NCBI GenBank assembly: GCA_944338165.1
Contig: CALVLN010000005.1
Location: 1 to 64,000, forward strand
From: an uncultured Clostridia bacterium
GTDB lineage: Bacteria; Bacillota; Clostridia; Christensenellales; Borkfalkiaceae
Length of the DNA stretch: 64,000 bases
Direction: 5' to 3'
In this document: piece by piece, positions 61,026-64,000 of the stretch
Layout of the letters: every line of letters begins with the position of its first letter
Position numbering within the stretch: the stretch's first letter is position 1
Program-made: the position numbers and the translations under genes
The notes under the pieces: generated by a model
Database searches by the model: none
Told to the model about the DNA's origin: nothing
Seen by the model: only the letters and a program-made list of their open reading frames with translations

Positions 61026-63614
61026 TTATGCGAGCATGCCACCGTAGCGCGCAGCCAAGGTACAGATCTCCTCTACCGTGATGAGCCCCTTCCCCACGGC
61101 GATTTTCAGGTATTCCCCGTTCACCGCCTCAAACAGTTCTTCACTCACGGGGCACAGCGCGTTCAGCTCCTCGTACGTATACAGCCCGTACTCCTCGATG
61201 TCCGCCTGCATCTGCGCCTCGTCGTAGGCGAGCGTTTCCGCATCTACTTCAAAAATATTGAACAGCCCTTCGATCCCGCCCGGCATCGACAGCATCCCGT
61301 TCACAAAATAGCACAGATGCCCGTACGTCACGGGGCTGTACGCCGCCCTCTCTTCCGACGCGATCTCCACGCCGACGAGCGTGACTTCCGTCAGGCCGTC
61401 CGCACCCTGCTTCAAAAAACTGTGCCCTATGTATTCCGCCGCGTCCGCGTCCAGATACACGTACTCGTTGAGCCCGACGTCGAAGAACCCGTGTTCGGAG
61501 ATGACCTCCACCGTGCTCCCGTCCGAGAAGGTGAGTCGGATCACCTCGTACACCGCCGCGGGATCGCTGTCGATGAAGATGACGGGCGCCGCATCGTACG
61601 TCCCCGTGTACATGTTCCATACGAGCAGCTGTTCCTCCCCCGTCAGATCCTCCACCGCCTTTTGGCTGCCGTCTGCCAGCGTGATCAGCGTCCCTTCCGC
61701 AACGCAGGTCTCCGGCTGATATACGGCCGTGAAAAACAACTGATCACCATATATAGCGGCTGGCAAGACATTATAAATTGTGACTGTTTTTTCTGTATAG
61801 CATGTATAGATGCTTTTATCATTCAACTGGAAATAGGCATAGTATTTGCGCCATTCCACAAAGGTATACCCCTCGATATCGGGAGCCGTGACCTGTGTGC
61901 CATATGTAGGATGTGGTTGATCGTAAACCATTTCCACGGTCGACCCGTCCACAATCTCGGTATCTGCAATATATGTCTGAATTGTCAATGTCCATCGCAT
62001 AGGGGACCACTGTGCATAAAGATTCAAATCTTGTGTTCCTGTAAAAACATCGGTATCCCCATTATAATATATATTTCCATTGGAATCATAATAATAACTA
62101 AACGTATAACCTGTTCGATTCGGATAATCGATTTTCGGCATCTCATCGCCCGTCTTTACATAAACAATTTCCGTTCCGTTTACTCCTCCGGCGAAATTAA
62201 AATGAATCGCTTTATACACCAATCTTAACGAATTGTAAACATTCAACCTGCCTCCCGTAGAACACATGTCTGAAAGCGCAGCAATTTCATCCACACCGTC
62301 CAAAATAACCGTTTTTAATTCTTCTACTGACAAATCGGAGGCAACGCTTTTGATCAAAGCAGCCGTCCCCGCAACCAATGGAGTGGAAAATGAAGTTCCA
62401 TATGCACCGCTACTGTATCCATTTTCATTGTTTGTGCTGACCATTTCCGTCCCTGGTGCAAATAAATTTACTGTATTCGCCCCATAACAGGATCCGAGAA
62501 AACCTTCCCAATCTACTTGTTCCGCGCAGAGATCGCTATTTGCCTTTGTTCCCCCAACGGATATGACATTGTTACAAATTGGCATAAGAGCTCCCGGAAT
62601 GGATGGAGTTGAGGAGCCCTTATTTCCTGCTGAAGCCACAACAAGTCCATTGTAATTATTTATAGCATTTGCCATAATATACAAACCTTCTATCATATCT
62701 GAGTCGATTGTCCCCTCTTCAAATCCAAAATTTCCACTGCAATTCAATATCGCTATATTGTTCTGTATCGCATATGTCAATGCTGCGACAAATATATTGC
62801 ACCACCATTTATCAATTTTTATAGGCACAAGTTTGACTCCAGGACATACGGCATTGACTAACCCTGCGACCATAGTTCCGTGTCCGTCGACATCTTCTGT
62901 ATTGTTATCATATTCAATTTGTTCAGAAATGCTTGCATTGCTAAAAAAATGTATTCCGGTCCCTACATTCAATTCATCATGTTCGGCGATCCCTGAATCA
63001 ATAATTCCAACCGCAACTTCTTCCTGACCTAATGTTGAAACGATTTCTTGCGCTTCCAACGCCTCAATACGCTCCAATCCCCATTGATTCCAATAATCTT
63101 CTTGAGTATAGTAGCTTCTTGTCGCCTCTCTAAAATCTTTTTCTTCTGCAACTCCCGCAGAATCAGTTGCAATCTTATAATTAGGACAAACAAATTTAAT
63201 TCCGTCAACAGCATATAATGCAGAAATAGCATCATGAATATATTCTACGCCGCACTCTTTCGGCAAACCAATTTGAAAAATCTGCCGAAAATTATCCTTA
63301 TCCAAATATTTTAGAGTTTCAATACCTCCTTCGATTGCTGTCAAATCCGTTATATATGTCTTTTCAAAATCACCAAAAAATGCATCAGTATGTATTTTAT
63401 TTACCTCACTGTGATATTTATCTACAACGATCAGCAAACTTTCGACATCAATATCATCTGTTAAATCGCTATTCCATTCCCAATAAACCTTTTGTTCACA
63501 CGGAACAACTGACTCTGCAAAAACATGAACTACACCAACATTGATAAAAACCAAAAAAGTACAAATCAAAACAAACAAAACAATAGGTTTACATTCAAAT
63601 AATTTCTTCATCAT
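61026..63614 (-). CDS. Secreted S8 subtilase with InlB repeats and Hint domain
   Basis: 862 residues, exported. Signal peptide to about 34 (MMKKLFECKPIVLFVLICTF...), prodomain-like region to about 170, S8 protease with Asp206 (GIIDSG), His245 (DGHGT), oxyanion Asn331 (SAGN) and Ser408 (GTSFSTP). Two InlB/Listeria-Bacteroides-type repeats follow (about 470-540 and 541-635: GYTFSYYYD..., GYTFVEWRK...). From Cys637 a Hint (hedgehog/intein) domain begins CVAEGTLITLADGS and includes SEHGFFD and CYFVNGML; the HN usually needed for splicing is absent. The Hint part is GC-rich and the rest AT-rich. AGGAGAG ribosome site; 21 bases after the upstream gene. Confidence 0.9.
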   Translation of the reverse strand: MMKKLFECKPIVLFVLICTFLVFINVGVVHVFAESVVPCEQKVYWEWNSDLTDDIDVESLLIVVDKYHSEVNKIHTDAFFGDFEKTYITDLTAIEGGIETLKYLDKDNFRQIFQIGLPKECGVEYIHDAISALYAVDGIKFVCPNYKIATDSAGVAEEKDFREATRSYYTQEDYWNQWGLERIEALEAQEIVSTLGQEEVAVGIIDSGIAEHDELNVGTGIHFFSNASISEQIEYDNNTEDVDGHGTMVAGLVNAVCPGVKLVPIKIDKWWCNIFVAALTYAIQNNIAILNCSGNFGFEEGTIDSDMIEGLYIMANAINNYNGLVVASAGNKGSSTPSIPGALMPICNNVISVGGTKANSDLCAEQVDWEGFLGSCYGANTVNLFAPGTEMVSTNNENGYSSGAYGTSFSTPLVAGTAALIKSVASDLSVEELKTVILDGVDEIAALSDMCSTGGRLNVYNSLRLVYKAIHFNFAGGVNGTEIVYVKTGDEMPKIDYPNRTGYTFSYYYDSNGNIYYNGDTDVFTGTQDLNLYAQWSPMRWTLTIQTYIADTEIVDGSTVEMVYDQPHPTYGTQVTAPDIEGYTFVEWRKYYAYFQLNDKSIYTCYTEKTVTIYNVLPAAIYGDQLFFTAVYQPETCVAEGTLITLADGSQKAVEDLTGEEQLLVWNMYTGTYDAAPVIFIDSDPAAVYEVIRLTFSDGSTVEVISEHGFFDVGLNEYVYLDADAAEYIGHSFLKQGADGLTEVTLVGVEIASEERAAYSPVTYGHLCYFVNGMLSMPGGIEGLFNIFEVDAETLAYDEAQMQADIEEYGLYTYEELNALCPVSEELFEAVNGEYLKIAVGKGLITVEEICTLAARYGGMLA

Positions 63615-63635: not shown

Positions 63636-64000
63636 TTACTTTGTTTTGGTTTCCTTGTAACCATCATCGACTCCGTAGCGAGGCAAACAAGACTGCACAT
63701 GATCGAAGCGAGAGAGTAGCCTCCCGTATTGTTCCACAACATCTTTGGGGGCGTCGTGATCCAGCACTCCGAGCGTATACAGCGGGGAAGCAGCTTCCTC
63801 TCCGCTCTTAAATGCATGATAGCTGACCCATGTGACAGACGGCCCTGCGGCGAATCCCGCAAAATCGTCCGCGGTAAAGATACGGCCTGCATACGCCCGA
63901 TCGATCTGTACCGTATAAGAGCCGAAAAAACTCAGCCAGGAATCCGGGATCTCCTCCAACGCTTCCTTTTCTTCCATAGGATAATGCCGCGTCTCGTAAT
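63636..64000 (-). CDS. C-terminal part of an unrecognised protein, partial
   Basis: The frame is open to the window edge, so the gene probably begins outside; an internal ATG lies at 63977. About 120 residues are visible (ending ...CLPRYGVDDGYKETKTK). No signal peptide, membrane helix or known motif is visible, and I do not recognise the family. Its base composition is mixed and less AT-rich than the protease part of the next gene. It ends 21 bases before the subtilase start, so the two may be co-transcribed. Confidence 0.6.
   Translation of the reverse strand, partial: YETRHYPMEEKEALEEIPDSWLSFFGSYTVQIDRAYAGRIFTADDFAGFAAGPSVTWVSYHAFKSGEEAASPLYTLGVLDHDAPKDVVEQYGRLLSRFDHVQSCLPRYGVDDGYKETKTK

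Follow-up and report, generated by a model that had tools for sequence, protein, structure and literature searches.

The window analysed here, a stretch of 64,000 nucleotides from an uncultured Clostridia bacterium, carries near its right end an open reading frame (61026..63614) for a secreted protein of 862 amino acids, which the ORF and Pfam matches identify as a subtilase, InlB-like repeat and Hint protein. This gene and all parts described below lie on the reverse strand, and a ribosome-binding-like GGAGAG stands upstream of the ATG. The hydrophobic N-terminus is a signal peptide (codons 1-35, 63510..63614), followed by a pro-like region and then by the Peptidase_S8 domain (residues 199-439, 62298..63020; PF00082, E 4e-27), in which the D206, H245 and S408 motifs make up the whole Asp-His-Ser triad of a subtilase. 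Residues 470-535 (62010..62207) match the InlB/List-Bact repeat slightly under the cut-off (PF09479, E 2e-5), and after them come a linker (codons 541-624, 61743..61994) and a short composition joint located by a GC3 change-point (codons 625-636, 61707..61742), immediately before Cys637. The rest of the protein (codons 637-862), which we call the tail, is a discrete cassette of 226 codons. It consists of a Hint domain (residues 637-780, 61275..61706), delimited by an alignment of 103 relatives, a structure model and fold matches, and a conserved helical end of 75-80 residues (within residues 781-862, 61029..61274) with five helices and the motif YG..TYEE...F...K...GKG. Upstream of the gene lies the 3' part of a lipoprotein gene (63636..64000), which continues to C5:64925.

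The base composition of the gene switches just before the tail. The earlier note had counted by hand 39/60 GC at 61501-61560 and 20/60 at 62761-62820, and both counts are exact. The whole tail has 60.3% GC and the passenger, as we call the part upstream of it, 38.8%, and every other 1.9-kb stretch within positions 1-61000 of the window has at least 54.9%. GC3 shifted as well, from 0.338 (codons 36-636) to 0.814 (codons 637-862), so the switch is not a matter of amino-acid choice alone, and the tail value lies in the range of the resident genes (0.71-0.85). The best GC3 change-point was codon 625 with a support interval of 624-634, which lies 3-13 codons, or 9-39 bases, ahead of the Cys637 codon, so the switch does sit at the domain junction as first proposed; its log-likelihood ratio was 86, and the maximum in 1000 permutations was 14. 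On its other side, too, the AT-rich stretch has a border, since the lipoprotein gene upstream returns to a higher GC content (GC3 0.65).

The first explanation given for this switch was that, recently and in this genome, an AT-rich foreign passenger had been fused to a GC-rich Hint already resident there, and both the sharpness of the GC3 switch and the agreement of the tail with the resident genes speak for it. However, a locus from another genus of the host's family (L048) has a full-length homologue of the gene with the same switch (GC3 0.35 in S8 and 0.75 in Hint) behind the same upstream lipoprotein gene (74% DNA identity), with different outer flanks, so the combination was either shared or transferred as a unit. 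The host genome, moreover, has a single copy of the tail. In the tail tree, the tail of this protein belongs to a group of six (support 100/99), whose passengers include a lipoprotein-like protein, InlB proteins and subtilases. These six come from several genera, so even the resident status of the Hint is uncertain. A recent joining in this genome is therefore improbable.

Identity to the L048 homologue is very uneven, with 49% in the S8 domain, 95% in the linker, 76% in the Hint domain and 66% in the helical end of the protein, and at the DNA level with 92% in the linker and 56% in the S8 part. Such a well-matched linker beside a divergent protease points to a distinct and recent exchange event near the joint. 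The L048 copy (L048:3480-6003) seems to be decayed or misassembled, since its linker contains an in-frame stop and a start codon is not clearly recognisable. A lipoprotein gene also lies directly upstream of the tail-bearing genes of L026, L028, L031, L032 and L033, where the lipoprotein families differ; the one at this locus might inhibit the protease or act as its partner.

In the structure model of the 226-residue tail (mean pLDDT 94.3), with Cys637 counted as residue 1, the beta fold of the Hint extends to around residue 142, and the five helices begin at residue 163. The Hint model matched the fold of the DnaB mini-intein 1mi8 (Z 19.1), the RecA mini-intein (18.7), the Hedgehog autoprocessing domain (18.3) and the Clostridium thermocellum BIL 2lwy (17.5). 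The profile match to 2lwy reached E 0.0012 over residues 2-79, and other Hints scored similarly. Pfam gave a weak Hint match at residues 635-764 of the 862-aa protein, and no Hint family model of Pfam or NCBIfam reached its cut-off on it; at E<=0.01 none of the Pfam families matched the 226 tail residues, and the only NCBIfam match was an intein-bearing helicase model far under its cut-off. The tail thus appears to be an uncatalogued variant of the Hint superfamily, which no model in Pfam or NCBIfam identifies.

For the alignment and residue counts, 103 distinct tails were assembled. Cys1 (Cys637) and His72 (His708) were kept in all of them, and Asp46 (Asp682) was present in 85, this protein included, and missing from 18; in 84 of those 85 it occurred together with Cys132 (Cys768). 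The position of the block-B Thr (TxxH) holds Ile in this protein and Ile or Val in 96/103 tails, with Thr in 2/103, and this loss may make the reaction slow. The C-terminal HN is absent, as the earlier note had seen: Ser776-Met777 stand at its place, and the relatives lack it too. The main-group tail profile aligned to Hedgehog 1at0 without gaps over residues 1-72 with C1, D46 and H72 matched, at an E value (0.096) that is not significant alone, so the equivalence of these residues is weak by sequence and supported by the strong fold match. The Hedgehog active site consists of D243 (equal to position 46), T267 and H270, and the sterol recognition region (SRR) directs cholesterol towards the thioester (PMC7906309). 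Cys132 was also considered as a counterpart of the motif-J cysteine of Hedgehog; on our reading of the motif order, its position in the chain speaks against this, and we claim no equivalence.

The helical end was also modelled alone from 74 sequences (pLDDT 89.7). Compared with the PDB, it had no Foldseek match at E<=0.001 and, on a second look, none at Z>=2, a result that does not speak for a new fold. It had no detectable similarity to the SRR or to PDB sequences, and no SRR structure exists for comparison (PMC7906309). Weak calmodulin matches to tail residues 141-191 were no longer seen once the end was searched with a deeper profile, and they were dismissed. Two lysines of the end, Lys201 and Lys206 of the tail (Lys837 and Lys842 of the protein), are 97-99% conserved among the 103 tails.

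A profile search found relatives of the tail in 87/398 genomes of the host's family. Matches at E<1e-30 came from 74 of these 87 genomes, in 10/18 genera, and the remainder were partial or generic Hint matches. The tail also occurs in scattered other gut Clostridia outside the family. The named tail-bearing records are mostly gut MAGs, including Candidatus Gallimonas caecicola and bins labelled Christensenella, Oscillospiraceae and Ruminococcus. Two records labelled Corallococcus (L107 and L114) have tails deep within the Clostridial tree and are probably misnamed bins. At L103, L062, G497:C64, G549:C3 and G596:C6, two or three Hint-tailed genes are clustered, several of them with a single internal stop. 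Viral contigs had only distant Hint matches, mostly ending near residue 140, and so gave no sign that the cassette is phage-borne; the viral match that extended furthest into the helical end was a Hint at 5001-5630 of L188, 34% identical over residues 1-214. A literature search with few subscription journals in its scope, on Hint domains in connection with gut bacteria, sortase or anchoring at the surface, turned up no description of this subfamily.

The other explanation offered by the earlier note, that Hint cassettes are used repeatedly with different secreted passengers, was borne out, because closely related tails sit on unrelated passengers and the DNA similarity is confined to the cassette. 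Among 470 tail pairs that were at least 65% identical, the passengers had no detectable similarity in 257, and Hint ends of 65-86% identity stood behind unrelated passengers even inside single genomes (L047/L049 and L112/L122). In most of the close pairs with unrelated passengers that were tested, the DNA similarity started at most 20 bases from the Cys1 codon and ended near the stop codon, and in L047/L049 and L027/L028 it started at +0 to +3 relative to Cys1. Of 71 passengers, 9 were subtilases, 27 had List_Bact repeats and 17 had BspA-type LRR, and InlB-repeat giants are among the proteins that bear the tail. Peptidases of the papain, C10, M64 and trypsin-like kinds were found once or a few times, as were hydrolases, camelysin-like proteins and prepilin N-termini. 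A hydrophobic export segment was present at the N-terminus of 55/67 complete tail-bearing proteins, and Pfam families at E<=1e-4 gave no second surface anchor in the 71 passengers. Some passengers are possible fibre subunits: those of L082 and L090 have prepilin-like (type IV) N-termini, and those of L065, L075, L097, L110, L120 and L121 have camelysin/TasA-like N-termini with SipW-type signals.

The composition break was recurrent too. Tail GC3 exceeded passenger GC3 in 75/96 tail-bearing genes, and for 17 of the 21 strong change-points the support interval came to within 12 codons of Cys1 on either side; the genes behind these counts are related and so are not independent events, although their passengers differ. 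A break of DNA composition that recurs before Cys637 points to replacement of the passenger (or of the tail) by recombination at the cassette edge. Tail GC3 correlated with host GC at r 0.73 and passenger GC3 at r 0.65, and this slightly closer tracking is expected if tails outlast passengers in a lineage, with the direction not proven. No conserved partner gene was found at 97 tail loci, where the best cluster, a small lipoprotein, was present at 10/97, and the loci shared no downstream gene. A small sigma-factor-like gene lies near Hint-tailed genes in six loci, including L047, L062, L089, L091 and L105. Judged from these sequence comparisons, the tail is almost certainly a portable, swappable C-terminal cassette of secreted proteins that runs from Cys637 to the stop codon.

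Among known systems, the Hedgehog Hog domain resembles the tail in several ways: it is C-terminal behind a secreted passenger, has the Hint fold without HN, works independently of the passenger, has Cys1, Asp46 and His72 at equal positions, and has a further region after the Hint, where the place of the SRR is taken in the tail by a helical end unrelated to it by sequence. In contrast to Hog, the tail is bacterial, lacks the block-B Thr and stands behind many different passengers. We would not file it as a Hog domain, since the block-B Thr and a demonstrable SRR are missing, while the architecture and three catalytic residues appear to match. BIL domains (types A and B) are also Hints in variable secreted bacterial proteins, and 2lwy is a fold match, but the tail has no HN and always ends with the conserved 75-80 residues and a stop; it also stays outside the cut-offs of the existing Hint Pfam models. 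The mini-inteins (DnaB, RecA) gave the best fold matches and lead one to expect N-terminal Cys chemistry, but the tail has no splicing C-terminus or C-extein and does not interrupt a conserved housekeeping protein. An intein was rejected, as in place of a C-terminal His-Asn and a +1 nucleophile there are Ser-Met, a conserved domain and the stop. Pretoxin-HINT domains of polymorphic toxins likewise stand towards the end in large secreted proteins; a polymorphic toxin was rejected too, since the part after the Hint is conserved rather than a variable toxin and no conserved immunity-gene candidate lies downstream. Sortase/LPXTG anchors have the same place in the protein and the same kinds of passenger (proteases, LRR, InlB repeats), but the tail has no LPXTG, its catalysis would be in cis, and the family is almost without sortase.

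The earlier note had preferred self-cleavage or attachment to splicing, and this fits, as there is neither HN nor a variable C-extein. The invariant Cys1 and His72, the common Asp46 and the missing HN fit a Hedgehog-like N-S acyl shift with self-cleavage. From the Hint fold and these residues, we propose that after export Cys637 would attack the carbonyl of Thr636 with assistance from His708, giving a thioester, and that the reaction would terminate in cleavage because HN and C-extein are absent. Cleavage at Cys637 is likely, given the conserved residues and the modelled fold. For the last step we prefer, by analogy with Hedgehog, that Asp682 and the helical end would recruit a small envelope nucleophile, for which a lipid, a glycan or a peptidoglycan amine is a candidate, so that the passenger would leave the tail covalently fixed to the cell. 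Transfer is favoured because of the conserved helical end, the surface-type passengers, the lack of a second recognised anchor and the fact that the family is nearly devoid of sortase; on the Hedgehog analogy, transfer rather than plain hydrolysis is a good possibility that falls somewhat short of being probable.

The alternative in which water hydrolyses the thioester and frees the passenger, with the helical end only folding or tethering the precursor, is rather unlikely, though it accounts for the conserved Cys1 and His72 and the absent HN, and a Hedgehog Hint lacking the SRR does cleave without attachment (PMC7242414). It leaves unexplained why the C-terminal helical domain is invariant and why the tail stands on adhesin-, pilin- and LRR-type passengers in which no other anchor was recognised. 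If the Hint fold did not cleave and had been retained solely as a stable module for sorting or binding at the C-terminus, the loss of the block-B Thr and HN would be understandable, but Cys1 and His72 would hardly be invariant in 103 tails, nor would the homology start at Cys1, both of which speak for chemistry at that residue, and we consider such a module quite unlikely. Attack on the thioester by Lys837 or Lys842 of the helical end, which would branch the protein through an intramolecular isopeptide, could draw on the conservation of these lysines, but we know of no precedent for it, and it is very improbable.

Fastening secreted proteins to the cell is usually the job of other machinery in such bacteria. 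Sortase was found in 3/398 genomes of the host's family vs 128/245 across the class, and none was found in the host genome; the C-terminus of the 862-aa protein has no LPXTG, membrane segment or positive tail. The near lack of sortase is only suggestive of the tail as an anchor, and some findings count against anchoring: most sortase-less genomes of the genus have no tail, the exclusivity of tail and sortase across the class is not significant (2/8 vs 126/237, p 0.16), and InlB giants of the same genus that have no tail end in a transmembrane segment or in nothing. The tail-less InlB giants of L241, L243, L250 and L251, from a genus without sortase over the cut-off, have a transmembrane helix and a Lys-rich end without LPXTG. 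Taken whole, the preferred explanation, a portable processing cassette that cleaves and preferably transfers its passenger to an envelope nucleophile, has in our judgement about an even chance of being right. Only tentatively, by analogy, would we call it a bacterial Hedgehog counterpart, a swappable tail that cleaves off and covalently attaches its passenger and so serves gut Clostridia as a cis-acting, sortase-independent anchor.

Even if the tail only cleaves, it represents a large Hint subfamily, as yet uncatalogued, with an exact edge that shows where recombination of secreted proteins takes place, and it would be a source of compact self-cleaving tags. The Hint-directed small-molecule ligation by Hedgehog has been called singular (PMC7242414). 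If transfer is true, the tail would be a second case of such ligation beside Hedgehog, and it would give gut bacteria that are nearly without sortase a self-contained means of decorating their cells.
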